Source of the DNA: Betaproteobacteria bacterium | GTDB taxonomy: Bacteria; Pseudomonadota; Gammaproteobacteria; Burkholderiales; Usitatibacteraceae | Length of the DNA stretch: 36,334 nt | NCBI GenBank assembly: GCA_025362705.1 | Contig: JANYFH010000232.1 | Location: forward strand, 1 to 36,334 | Direction of reading: 5' to 3' | Shown: positions 10,054 through 30,746 of the stretch, piece by piece | Layout: each line of letters starts with the position of its first letter | Numbering within the stretch: position 1 is the first letter of the stretch | The notes under the pieces: model-generated | Databases searched by the model: none | What the model saw: only the letters and a program-made list of their open reading frames with translations | What the model was told of the DNA's origin: nothing | Translations under genes and position numbers: made by a program

Positions 10054-10799
10054 TCAAGGTAGAAAACCTGAGAAAACAATTCGGCGCCGTCAAGGCGGTG
10101 GACGGCGTCACGTTCACCGCGAACAGTGGTGCAATCACCGGCCTGCTTGGGCCGAACGGCGCAGGAAAAACCACCACTATTCGCATGATCGGCACGCTGA
10201 TAGACATCGATTCCGGATTGGCGTTGATCGACAATGTCAATGTCGCAATTGACCCGGACGGCGCGCGCCGCGCCTGCGGTCTACTCACCGATTCGCGTGG
10301 CGTGTATACCCGCATGACTGCGCGCGAAAATATCCGCTACTACGCCGAATTGCGTGGCGTTGAAATTGCGCGTTCGGAAAAAACGCTGGCGCGATTCATT
10401 GAGTGGCTCGATATGAAAGACATTCTGGATCGCCGTACCGAGGGATTTTCGCAAGGCGAACGCATGAAAGTTGCCATCGTGCGTGCACTTATCCATGAGC
10501 CCACCAATGTCATTCTTGATGAGCCGACCAATGGCCTCGATGTGATGAGTACCAGGGCGCTGCGTGAACTTATCAAGCGCCTCAAATCCGAAGGCCAGAC
10601 GGTAATGTTTTCCAGTCACGTCATGCAGGAAGTTGCCGCGTTGTGCGACGAAATTATCATCATCTCCCATGGCCGCGTGACGGCGCAGGGAACCACGAGT
10701 CAGTTGATCGAGCTGAGCGGCAAGCAAAATCTGGAAGATGCTTTCATTGCATTGAGTGATGTTCTGAACACTGCAGCCACGCGCAAAGAGGCCGCATGA
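10050..10799 (+). CDS. ABC transporter ATP-binding protein (NatA-like)
   Basis: Walker A GPNGAGKTT, EGFSQGERMKVAIVRALIHEPTNVILDEPTNGLDV; ATGA overlap with upstream hydrolase. Confidence 0.9.
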   Translation: MIKVENLRKQFGAVKAVDGVTFTANSGAITGLLGPNGAGKTTTIRMIGTLIDIDSGLALIDNVNVAIDPDGARRACGLLTDSRGVYTRMTARENIRYYAELRGVEIARSEKTLARFIEWLDMKDILDRRTEGFSQGERMKVAIVRALIHEPTNVILDEPTNGLDVMSTRALRELIKRLKSEGQTVMFSSHVMQEVAALCDEIIIISHGRVTAQGTTSQLIELSGKQNLEDAFIALSDVLNTAATRKEAA

Positions 10800-11974
10800 T
10801 GTTGGCGACCATTGTTACCGTCTGCAAGAAAGAGCTCCTCGATCACCTGCGCGACAGGCGCACCGCCGCAATGATTTTTTTCCTGTCGATTGCGATGGGG
10901 CCGTTGTTGTTGTTTGGCTTGACACAGTTCATCGCCAGCGTGGAAAAGAAAGCCGAAGCGCGCGAAGTGTATGTGCAGGGCAAGGATAACAGTCCGGAAA
11001 TTGTTAACTACTTCGCGCGTCAAGATGTCACCATCAAGGATCCAAAGCCGGATTTTCGCGAGCTGATTAAAAACGGCAAGCACGACCCGGTGCTCGTGAT
11101 ACCAAAAGAATTTGCGGAAAAATTCAGTACTGGCACTGCCCAAGTGGAACTCGTGTTCGATGATACGCGCCAGGATTCAGGCAAGGTCTCCATCGGTGTG
11201 CTGCGCAGATTGATGCTCGGATTCAATGCAGAGGCTTCAACACAGCGCCTGATTGCACGCGGCATATCGCCGCAACTCACGCGTGTAGTCGATGTGCAAG
11301 ATGTGAATCTTGGCACGGCGGCGCAGCGCGCGGCAGGTTTGCTGTTCATTATTCCCTGGATCACACTGCTCGGTTGCGTGAGCGGGGTGACGGCAATTGC
11401 CATTGACGTTACAGCAGGCGAACGTGAGCGCGGATCACTGGAGCCATTGTTGATGAATCCGGTGTCACGCGCGGGACTTGTGACGGGCAAATGGCTGGCT
11501 GTCGCGCTCTATGGTCTGACAGTCGCCACGCTCACGATGTGCGGGTTCGCGTTAACTCTGAATTTTGTGCCGTTGCCAAATCTGGCCAGTGTGTTGTCGA
11601 TCAGCCCGGCGCAGTATTTCGGCTTTGCAATCACGATGTTTTCATTCGCGCCTGCGATGGGAGCTTTGCAAATGTTGATCGCCACCTACGGCCGCACCTA
11701 CAAGGAGGCGCAAACGTATGTGTCGTATCTCATCATGGCCGTTTCGATGGCGCCCGCGATCAGCATGCTGGCGCAGTTCAAGGACGCAACGTGGCAGTTA
11801 TTTGTACCGATGCTGGGGCAGTTGATGGTGATTACGCGAATCCTGCGTGGTGAGGCCGTGACGACGATCCATTACCTGCTGCCGTTCGCGATTAACGCGA
11901 CTCTTTGTCTGGTTGCGGTCGTGCTCATTTCCAAATTGCTTACCAAGGAGAAAATTATTTTCGGACGTGCTTAA
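10796..11974 (+). CDS. ABC transporter permease (NatB-like, ABC-2 type)
   Basis: CKKELLDHLRDRRTAAMIFFLSI, ITAGERERGSLEPLLMNPVSR-type segment (DVTAGERERGSLEPLLMNPVSRAGLVTGKW); ATGA overlap with NatA-like gene. Confidence 0.88.
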   Translation: MMLATIVTVCKKELLDHLRDRRTAAMIFFLSIAMGPLLLFGLTQFIASVEKKAEAREVYVQGKDNSPEIVNYFARQDVTIKDPKPDFRELIKNGKHDPVLVIPKEFAEKFSTGTAQVELVFDDTRQDSGKVSIGVLRRLMLGFNAEASTQRLIARGISPQLTRVVDVQDVNLGTAAQRAAGLLFIIPWITLLGCVSGVTAIAIDVTAGERERGSLEPLLMNPVSRAGLVTGKWLAVALYGLTVATLTMCGFALTLNFVPLPNLASVLSISPAQYFGFAITMFSFAPAMGALQMLIATYGRTYKEAQTYVSYLIMAVSMAPAISMLAQFKDATWQLFVPMLGQLMVITRILRGEAVTTIHYLLPFAINATLCLVAVVLISKLLTKEKIIFGRA

Positions 11975-12149
11975 GGATCCGCTGATCAAGTCCATTCCGC
12001 AAATCTTGCGTCGATATTGGGGCATCTGCAGGCCGCAGGCCGTGTTGCACTCCTCGTGCGGTAGCTTAAGCAACACACCTTCGTCGCACGCCTTGCATAT
12101 GCCCCAATCTCAACACAATCTTTTCGAAAGCGACTTAATCAGAGGTTCC
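11975..12149 (+). mobile_element. MITE-like long-hairpin element, copy 1
   Basis: Imperfect ~55-bp terminal inverted repeats (GGATCCGCTGATCAAGTCCATTCCGCAAATCTTGCGTCGATATTGGGGCATCTGC / GCATATGCCCCAATCTCAACACAATCTTTTCGAAAGCGACTTAATCAGAGGTTCC); flanked by TTAA at 11971-11974 and 12150-12153; second, inverted copy at 30334-30497. Confidence 0.8.
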
Positions 12150-12207
12150 TTAATATTGCGACGTGATGCGGCGGTGAAAAACAGCAACCGCAAGGTATCA
12201 TCCCGCT

Positions 12208-14205
12208 ATGTCAGAAATAAGCACGATCTTCGGCCCCGATGGGCCACTTGCCAAACGTATTGAAGGTTTTCGTCACCGCCAGAGCCAGATCGAAATGGCG
12301 GAAAAAATCGATGCCGCCATCAAGCGCGCGGGGGTACTGGTCGCTGAGGCGGGCACCGGCACTGGCAAGACGTTCGCCTATCTTGTTCCGGCGCTGCAGT
12401 CTGGCGGCAAGGTAATCATTTCGACGGGTACCAAGAACCTTCAGGATCAGCTTTTTCGTCGCGATATTCCCACCGTCATCAAGGCGCTGGGCATTCCTGT
12501 CAGCACCGCGTTGCTCAAGGGCCGTGCGAATTATGTGTGCCTGCATCATCTCGATGGTGCTATCGCCGACGGACGCTTCCTCAGCCGCGAAGACGTCAAA
12601 CACATTCACATTATTCGCCGCTTTGCTGATCGCTGCCTGAGCGGCGGCGGCACCGGCGACAAAGCGGAATTGCCTGATGTGTCCGAACGATCAAGCGCAT
12701 GGCCGGCAGCAGTGTCAACGCGGGAAAATTGTCTTGGCTCGCAATGTGCGCAGTACGCTGAATGCTTCGTCATGAAGGCCCGCAAAGCCGCGATGGAAGC
12801 AGAAGTGGTGGTCGTGAATCACCATTTGTTTTTCGCCGACCTGGTTCTGAAAGACGACGGCGCGCAGGATCTATTGCCGGCCTGCAACACTGTGATATTC
12901 GATGAGGCACATCAGTTACCGGAAACGGCAACGATGTTCTTCGGCGAAGTCGTTACGACTTCGCAATTGATCGAGCTCGCACGCGACTCACGCCTCGCCG
13001 GTGTTGAGCACGCAGGCGACTTCAAGGATTTGCAGGAGTCTTCAGGCGCACTCGACAAGGCTGCGCGTGATTTACGGCTGGTGATGCATGAAGACAACAC
13101 TCGCATTCCCGGCAAGGCGATCACCGAACGCGAAGGCTTTGCGGATGCATATGCCGATGTGCAGGAGAAAATTGCCGAACTGCGTGAGATGCTCGAAAGC
13201 CAGGCCGCACGCGCGCAAGAACTCGCCAATTGTCTCGAGCGCGCAGATGATTTCGCCAGCCGCATGACGCGCTGGCAGGATTCCAGCATCGAAGGTTATG
13301 TGCGCTGGGCAGAAGTATTCGGACATTCGCTCGCACTCCACCTGACACCGCTATCGATTGCCAATATTTTCAAGAGCCAGGTATTCGGCCAGAAACGCGC
13401 GTGGATTTTTACGTCAGCGACACTTGCTGTGAAAGGCGAATTTTCACACTACCAGACCGAAATGGGTTTGGTGAATGATCAATCTGCCGATGATTTCGAG
13501 GACGATGCGTTTGCCGAACGCAGCGTCGAAACCGCGTTCTGGCCATCGCCCTTCGACTACCCCAATCAGGCGTTGCTCTATGTGCCTGACAAAATGCCCG
13601 CGCCAAATACGTTTGAACATACTGAAGCCGTGGTCACTGCGGCGTTACCTTTGATCGAGGCTGCTGCCGGGCGCGCCTTCCTGCTGTTCACCTCATTGAA
13701 GGCGATGGATCGCGCTTACGAATCGCTGAAACTGCACGCCGAAAAGCGCGGCTGGGAATTTCCGCTTCTGGTGCAAGGTGAAGGCACGCGCAATGAATTG
13801 CTTGAACGCTTTCGTAAGCTCGGCAACGCCGTGCTGGTGGCCAGCCAGTCGTTTTGGGAGGGCGTCGATGTCAAGGGTGATGCCTTGTCACTCGTCGTGA
13901 TCGACAAGCTTCCCTTCGCACCGCCAGATGATCCTGTACTCGCCGCGCGAATCGACGCGATCAATCAGTCCGGCGGTAATGCATTCATGCAGTATCAGGT
14001 GCCGCACGCGGCGATTGCGCTGAAGCAGGGCGCGGGGCGGTTGATTCGCGATGAGACTGATCGCGGTGTGCTGATGATCTGCGATCCACGACTGGTCGAG
14101 AAGCCCTACGGCAAACGTATCTGGCAAAGCCTGCCGCCGATGAAACGGACGAGAGTGGAAGCGGAGGCAGTCGAGTTTTTCAGTGCCGAGAGCATGGTTC
14201 CCTAG
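12208..14205 (+). CDS. ATP-dependent DNA helicase, DinG/YoaA family (XPD-like)
   Basis: VAEAGTGTGKTFAYLVPAL, conserved Cys cluster (YVCLHHL...CLGSQCAQYAEC), VVVNHHLFFADL, IFDEAHQLPE, ASQSFWEGVDVKGDALSLVVIDKLPF, QGAGRLIRDETDRGV. Confidence 0.92.
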   Translation: MSEISTIFGPDGPLAKRIEGFRHRQSQIEMAEKIDAAIKRAGVLVAEAGTGTGKTFAYLVPALQSGGKVIISTGTKNLQDQLFRRDIPTVIKALGIPVSTALLKGRANYVCLHHLDGAIADGRFLSREDVKHIHIIRRFADRCLSGGGTGDKAELPDVSERSSAWPAAVSTRENCLGSQCAQYAECFVMKARKAAMEAEVVVVNHHLFFADLVLKDDGAQDLLPACNTVIFDEAHQLPETATMFFGEVVTTSQLIELARDSRLAGVEHAGDFKDLQESSGALDKAARDLRLVMHEDNTRIPGKAITEREGFADAYADVQEKIAELREMLESQAARAQELANCLERADDFASRMTRWQDSSIEGYVRWAEVFGHSLALHLTPLSIANIFKSQVFGQKRAWIFTSATLAVKGEFSHYQTEMGLVNDQSADDFEDDAFAERSVETAFWPSPFDYPNQALLYVPDKMPAPNTFEHTEAVVTAALPLIEAAAGRAFLLFTSLKAMDRAYESLKLHAEKRGWEFPLLVQGEGTRNELLERFRKLGNAVLVASQSFWEGVDVKGDALSLVVIDKLPFAPPDDPVLAARIDAINQSGGNAFMQYQVPHAAIALKQGAGRLIRDETDRGVLMICDPRLVEKPYGKRIWQSLPPMKRTRVEAEAVEFFSAESMVP

Positions 14206-29569: not shown

Positions 29570-30331
29570 CTACGCGTGCTTCTGCCCATCCGGCACGAAC
29601 ACGTAACCCAGGCCCCAGACCGTTTGCACATAACGCGGATTGGATGGATCCTCACCAAGCAATTTGCGTAACCGGGAGACCTGTACATCGATGGCCCGGT
29701 CAAACGTATCGTGTTCACGCCCGCGCGCGAGTTCGGTGAGTTTGTCGCGTGACAGTGGTACTCGCGCGTGTTCGACCAGCACTTTCAGCAAACCAAATTC
29801 ACCCGTGGTCATGGGCAGTGATTTGTCATCGCGCAGCAGCGAACGTGTGCCCAGGTTCAGGCTGAACGGGCCAAACAGCACAACCGTATCGTTGTCAGCC
29901 GGTGCACCCGGTGTCGGTAGCGGCACCTGCCGGCGCAGAACTGCGTTGATGCGGGCGACCAATTCACGCGGATTGAATGGTTTGGACAAATAATCGTCGG
30001 CACCGATTTCAAGGCCGACAATGCGATCAATGTCATCCCCTTTGGCGGTCAGCATGATGATCGGAATATTTGCCTCCGCTGCGCTGGAAGCACGCAGACG
30101 GCGACAAATGGCGAATCCATCCTCGTTCGGCAACATGACATCGAGCACCACCAGATCGTAGCGGCTGCGCGTGAATGCGCGATCGAGTGCCACGCCATCG
30201 GGCACGGTGTCGGCGGCGAAACCCTGCTCGGTCAGATAGCGTTTTAACAAGTCGCGCAGACGCAAGTCGTCGTCGACAACAAGAATACGATGGCGGGGGA
30301 GGGGATGCGGGTGAGGGTTGGCGTTGTTCAT
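29570..30331 (-). CDS. ompR: OmpR-like response regulator
   Basis: RILVVDDDLRLRDLLKRYL, DLVVLDVMLPNEDGFAICRRLR, winged helix C-terminus RAIDVQVSRLRKLLGEDPSNPRYVQTVWGLGYVFVPDG. Confidence 0.9.
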   Translation of the reverse strand: MNNANPHPHPLPRHRILVVDDDLRLRDLLKRYLTEQGFAADTVPDGVALDRAFTRSRYDLVVLDVMLPNEDGFAICRRLRASSAAEANIPIIMLTAKGDDIDRIVGLEIGADDYLSKPFNPRELVARINAVLRRQVPLPTPGAPADNDTVVLFGPFSLNLGTRSLLRDDKSLPMTTGEFGLLKVLVEHARVPLSRDKLTELARGREHDTFDRAIDVQVSRLRKLLGEDPSNPRYVQTVWGLGYVFVPDGQKHA

Positions 30332-30333
30332 AG

Positions 30334-30497
30334 GGAAGCTCTGATTGAGTCGCTTTCGAAGAGATTGTGTTGAGATTGGGGCATATGCAAGGCGTGCGAC
30401 GAAGGTGCGTTGCTTAAGCTACCGCACGAGGAGCGCAACACAGCAGATGCCCCAATATCGACGCAAGATTTTCGGAATGGACTTGATCAGAGGTTCC
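30334..30497 (-). mobile_element. MITE-like long-hairpin element, copy 2 (inverted relative to copy 1)
   Basis: GGAAGCTCTGATTGAGTCGCTTTCGAAGAGATTGTGTTGAGATTGGGGCATATGC ... GATGCCCCAATATCGACGCAAGATTTTCGGAATGGACTTGATCAGAGGTTCC; reverse complement matches 11975-12149 end to end apart from a short internal insertion in copy 1. Confidence 0.8.
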
Positions 30498-30746
30498 ATA
30501 AGCGCATATTAGTGGTCTCGTGGGTAGCCTGCAGGGTAAACGACAATCCAGTTGTAAGTAAATGTTAGCAAAGACCGGGACAAGCAGCGACGGGAGTGAG
30601 TGTCGTTACATGCAGTTACCAAGCGCATGCAACTGAATGGGACTTTCGACGTTCTATTGGTTAACCTGTGAATGTGTATTCGCATTCGCTGTTGAGCGCA
30701 TCCGCTACAGGTTTTTCGATAGCATCAATTTACATTGGAGAACACC

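Follow-up and report, generated by a model that had tools for sequence, protein, structure and literature searches.

The window, a stretch of 36,334 nucleotides that constitutes one contig (C213) of the draft genome of a betaproteobacterium of the Usitatibacteraceae (GCA_025362705.1; 421 contigs totalling 2.75 Mb, with a completeness of 85%), contains two related elements in opposite orientations about 18 kb apart (Table 1). The first lies between genes for an ABC-2 type permease and a DNA repair helicase, and the second directly adjoins the ATG of a gene for an OmpR-like response regulator. A preliminary description of this DNA recognized the pair as reverse-complement homologues with no ORF of note inside, flanked by TTAA on both sides in copy 1 and by ATAG and ATAA in copy 2, and all of this was confirmed, with 89% identity between the copies in blastn. 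The extra segment that it ascribed to copy 1 consists of GCAGGCC repeated in tandem (12028-12034 and 12035-12041), and this copy is 11 bases longer. The imperfect terminal repeats of about 55 bp described there have to be divided: inverted arms are present (65 nt, 77%, at 11971-12035/12089-12153 in copy 1; 58 nt, 76%, at 30331-30388/30443-30500 in copy 2), but only the outer 18 bp are of the transposition type and shared with an insertion sequence (IS), the remaining arm being part of a ~100-bp imperfect hairpin (hereafter the module), which is present once per element. A transcript would indeed form one long hairpin: copy 1 folds as RNA at -70.4 kcal/mol (z = -7.2, with 0/200 shuffles as good), and copy 2 folded as DNA gives z = -7.6. 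The lower covariance model score of the module in copy 1 is due to its local duplication.

Table 1. Features of the two elements and adjoining genes in the window; the strand given for each MITE is the direction of its hairpin module.
Feature	Position	Strand	Remarks
ABC-2 type permease gene	10796..11974	+	Stop codon within TTAA duplication
Left target-site duplication TTAA, copy 1	11971..11974	.	Contains permease TAA stop (11972-11974)
MITE copy 1, 175 bp	11975..12149	-	Homology, flanks
IS5-type 18-bp end, copy 1, right-end type	11975..11992	+	GGATCCGCTGATCAAGTC
Hairpin module, copy 1	12013..12116	-	Covariance model 38.0 bits, E 5.7e-9
GCAGGCC x2 tandem duplication, copy 1 extra segment	12028..12041	.	
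49-bp module core, copy 1	12044..12092	-	GGCGTGCGACGAAGGT...GAGGAGTGCAAC
IS5-type 18-bp end, copy 1, left-end type	12132..12149	-	GGAACCTCTGATTAAGTC, exactly the IS left end
Right target-site duplication TTAA, copy 1	12150..12153	.	
DNA repair helicase YoaA (DinG-like) gene	12208..14205	+	Downstream of copy 1; NF053712, 867 bits (cut-off 680)
OmpR-like response regulator gene	29570..30331	-	Start codon abutted by copy 2; NF007005, 385 bits (cut-off 331)
Left target-site duplication ATAG, copy 2	30330..30333	.	Overlaps OmpR-like start codon (30329-30331, minus strand)
MITE copy 2, 164 bp	30334..30497	+	Homology, flanks
IS5-type 18-bp end, copy 2, left-end type	30334..30351	+	2 mismatches vs search pattern
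Hairpin module, copy 2	30367..30468	+	Covariance model 69.3 bits, E 1.1e-18
49-bp module core, copy 2	30391..30439	+	
IS5-type 18-bp end, copy 2	30480..30497	-	GGAACCTCTGATCAAGTC, exactly the IS right end
Right target-site duplication ATAA, copy 2	30498..30501	.	One base changed

As the permease stop codon falls inside the TTAA duplication, copy 1 would have left that gene intact. At the OmpR-like gene, copy 2 would have moved the promoter region 164 bp away from the start codon, with a hairpin of 164 nt now lying between the two, and because of this intervening hairpin the expression of the gene has probably changed. In the adjoining intergenic region between the OmpR-like and EF-hand genes (30550-30640) TTGTAAGTAAATGTTAGCAAAG and GTTACATGCAGTTACCAAGCGCA are strongly conserved among congeners, and these are likely to be regulator sites. 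The other copies in the genome are intergenic, with many situated 0-15 bp from a gene end; insertion at stop codons is explained by the TAA or TAG within the target.

Genomic copies and the partner insertion sequence

The genome holds at least 18 loci of the element, comprising 17 full-length copies (~164 bp) and one truncated by a contig end; this is a minimum count, as draft assemblies break at repeats. The search for further copies thus yielded 16 loci besides the window pair, far above chance. The IS5 family follows a 4-bp YTAR target rule, and YTAR is found at 21/40 flanks as against ~0.6 expected under equal base use. Duplication of a 4-bp target holds for the copies taken together, as left and right flanks match beyond shuffled pairing (p = 0.0025), but not for every copy: those with mismatched flanks, several in number (L009, L014, L015), are old, recombined or misassembled. 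On contig C192 (L018) the left flank is that seen in C44 (L008) and the element sequence that seen in C40 (L006); misjoins or breaks in the assembly are probably due to the MITE. One 227-bp copy (L073, 436-662) has an arm with an additional ~60-bp palindromic insert (GCGTCCCATGGGACGC). There are also solitary 18-bp IS5-type ends, mostly beside YTAR (L066 395, L067 421-438, L069 388, L070 361-378 and L072 297-314), for which no partner ends were found within the 0.7-3 kb stretches examined; they are apparent remnants of deleted elements.

An IS with matching ends is present in the same assembly: the 18-19 bp at both MITE ends are identical to those of a 1195-bp IS5-family element, which we reconstructed from two contig ends (L061 1-1089, minus strand; L068 411-657). 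The 18-bp end GGANCCTCTGATYAAGTC is also present on contigs C35 and C373, whose terminal stretches share an identical 141-bp overlap and join to give the 1195-bp IS with CTAG at either side. The 341-codon ORF on C35 is a transposase of the transpos_IS5_4 family (NF033581, 346.8 bits, cut-off 140), with additional matches to PF01609 and PF05598. Even the difference between the left and right ends of the IS is kept in the MITE (GATTAAGTC at one end and GATCAAGTCC at the other), and the similarity stops after 18-19 bp, with nothing evident shared further inward. The joined flanks of the IS read GCACCAATG-CTAG-CATTGGTGC, a palindromic target that the flanks at L003, C20 and C134 (CTAGCAYTGG) resemble.

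The genome also has another IS5-ended MITE, ~141 bp long (L062 300-440, L063 336-476 and L064 334-475), which lacks the hairpin module, and therefore the module is not needed for mobilization by IS5. The congener G011 has a 147-bp relative (L091 1501-1647), and another, G003 (L096-L102), has 7 IS5-type transposase matches with 43-49% identity to the C35 enzyme, without these MITEs.

The module-bearing element itself is absent from 12/12 congeneric genomes tested, and in 104 kb from relatives that lack the MITE no match to the covariance model of the module had E < 0.7, the best candidate scoring 11.8 bits vs ~22-48 for module matches. At the position of copy 2, G001 has an empty site, GTCATAGGCGCATG; the window has TTCATAG-(164 bp)-ATAAGCGCATA there, so that copy 2 has inserted cleanly and duplicated 4 bp (ATAR). 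Copy 1 is missing between the same gene pair in G002 and G010. The MITE architecture suspected in the preliminary description is accordingly borne out by the multiple copies, the partner IS with identical ends, the 4-bp target duplications and the empty sites in congeners.

A widespread hairpin module

Searches with the core pattern GGCGYGCGACRAAGGT-N-GAGGAGYGCAAC, permitting a spacer of 8-38 bases, recovered it in 9/399 genomes of the order, with matches listed all of 48-49 bases and none for a reversed-pattern control. Across 84,980 species genomes (own genome possibly excluded) it occurs on 27 contigs, with matches of 47-49 bases, from Nitrosomonadaceae, Gallionellaceae, Thiobacillus, Rhodocyclales and others. 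The elements around these core matches are mostly 265-285 bp long and have ends of several kinds (GGAACCTCTGATTAAGTC and variants, GGAACCTCCGATTGYTTTATCC, TTAACAGGCTGTTGAARAACTC and GCTAGAACTCATTTCATAAATG). When 369 genomes sampled from the Gammaproteobacteria were searched with a covariance model of the module, 51 of them, representing 39 of 272 genera, contained it, often as 5-11 copies per genome among the 11 candidates scored in each.

Over 33 module matches, 95.5% of the cells are paired vs 65.4% when shuffled, with a covariation score of 0.725 vs 0.189 and 19 of the 21 pairs changed on both sides, the pairing being somewhat inflated by the fitting of the alignment (A3) to the covariance model. 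Sliding the stem partners abolishes the covariation in these 33 matches, and this loss, together with the size of the effect, argues for a real structure despite the model-fitted alignment. An inner loop, in which unpaired AAGGCG faces GCAAC, is nearly invariant, this invariance being partly by construction in the betaproteobacterial set, because the search pattern used to collect that set already specifies parts of the core. In terms of context, 20/29 modules lie between the inverted repeats of elements of 171-314 bp vs 0/366 random positions, and the terminal repeats around them are of at least ten unlike sequences. In one genome (G062) the module comes with ends of two kinds (L150, L147), and modules with 88-93% identity may have ends that are only 39-67% identical (e.g. 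L165/L147, L171/L172 and L147/L172). Elements of ~250-280 bp often hold two modules head-to-head, the window element being the small, one-module form; those of ~275 bp fold as a T, with an end stem and two arms (z = -13.5).

In tandem gene contexts the module shows no orientation bias (4 copies co-directional, 5 opposed). Neither consensus promoters nor terminators were found by scans of the elements, a similarity search with the element and its relatives gave no match in plasmids and phages, and an Rfam search of the window, beta- and gammaproteobacterial elements gave no credible match; mir-592 (E 0.027) and M23 (E 0.093) were below gathering scores and were dismissed. We also rejected an integron attC reading, as the conserved CAAC by our reading faces GGCG rather than a GTTG partner. 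A text search limited to open-access texts found no description of the module, keyword queries leading to reviews and to other MITEs; the genome paper of Polaromonas JS666 reportedly mentions MITEs.

Mobilization and origin of the element

We conclude, with a probability of about 0.9, that both copies are non-autonomous MITEs mobilized in trans by a DDE transposase of the IS5 family (IS5 subgroup), built around a widespread hairpin module that is not derived from an IS. The IS5 transposase would bind the 18-bp ends GGAACCTCTGATYAAGTC and then cut, and the excised MITE would be joined to a YTAR-type target with a 4-bp stagger, giving rise to the duplication. We infer such mobilization in trans, be the activity current or past. 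The mobile element itself is an ordinary IS5-type MITE, and its unusual part is the module. On sequence comparison the interior is not IS sequence: the module is found in many beta- and gammaproteobacteria in elements with unrelated terminal repeats. We favor the view that it is an old element core, which kept its fold while the ends were repeatedly replaced, or evolved, to suit the available transposases. That its geometry is fixed and its stems covary suggests selection for the fold, either as cruciform DNA or as RNA. It is possible, though somewhat less likely than not, that the module is a separate selfish or host-recognized unit that spreads through proteobacteria by taking on terminal repeats from many different IS families, in most cases as two modules that face each other and fold into a T.

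The strong covariation and the location of copies in intergenic gaps, often 0-15 bp from a gene end, could also be taken to mean that the element is a dispersed structured RNA or cis-regulatory hairpin (a terminator, processing site or small RNA) kept for the host, with transposition only as its delivery. This appears unlikely, given that the proximity to stop codons is expected from the YTAR target, that no Rfam family, consensus promoter or consensus terminator corresponds to it, that the module is nearly evenly divided between the two directions relative to tandem genes, and that it is absent in all congeners tested. There is even less to recommend the idea that the MITE arose simply by internal deletion from the resident IS5 and has a decayed IS interior: while the match to the IS over 18-19 bp, with left and right differences kept, is what such an origin would leave, nothing evident is shared with the IS ends beyond this, and homologues of the interior are found as modules with other terminal repeats in other genera, which largely refutes such an origin. 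Hairpins with a conserved internal mismatch, and their head-to-head pairing in ~275-bp elements, recall REPIN/BIME-like repeats moved by a RAYT (TnpA-REP) enzyme, but a DDE transposase is indicated by the ends of IS5 type, the YTAR duplications and the empty sites, and the unit of ~100 nt with no GTAG tag at the palindrome end renders such an affiliation very improbable. Least credible, despite the inverted orientation and 89% identity of the copies, is the suggestion that they serve as inversion substrates flipping the intervening 18 kb, since in MITE-free congeners the genes on either side of each copy lie next to one another in the same order, so that the window has the ancestral arrangement and no 18-kb inversion was fixed between the copies, and since a repeat of only 164 bp with 89% identity makes a poor substrate for recombination.

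Comparison with known elements

Bacterial MITEs are usually explained as deletion remnants of IS elements, each linked to one IS. A covarying core in elements with unrelated ends, across at least 39 genera, is at odds with this view, and would imply that the interior of a MITE can be under selection and able to change its mobilizing enzyme. The covariance model offers a ready annotation tool for these intergenic repeats, and the internal loop a specific structure for a binding-protein test.

The element is like MITEs of the IS5 family (IS5 subgroup) in that its 18-bp ends are those of a resident IS5-type IS, and in its 4-bp YTAR/CTAG duplications, want of an ORF, intergenic location and multiple copies; it is unlike them in that its interior is a structured module common to elements with other ends, rather than an IS remnant. 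The Correia elements or NEMIS of Neisseria are likewise betaproteobacterial inverted-repeat elements of 100-200 bp that lie near genes and fold as long hairpins. In Correia elements the target duplication is TA and the ends are ~26 bp long, whereas here the ends are of the IS5 type with a different sequence, and the 4-bp flanks are YTAR, not TA. With REPINs and BIMEs the element shares imperfect palindromes, often two head-to-head. Those are built of REP palindromes of 20-40 bp that bear a GTAG or CGTC tag and are associated with RAYTs; the present unit is far longer (~100 nt), has no terminal tag and comes with DDE-type terminal repeats and target duplications. Variable ends around a conserved core have been reported within one genome for QMITE1 of Coxiella burnetii (PMC5896051). 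By description this is a likeness to the present elements, which differ from it in that one folded core, bounded by unrelated terminal repeats, recurs in many genera. The novelty, then, apparently lies in a hairpin interior with changing ends, and not in the mobility of an IS5-type MITE.
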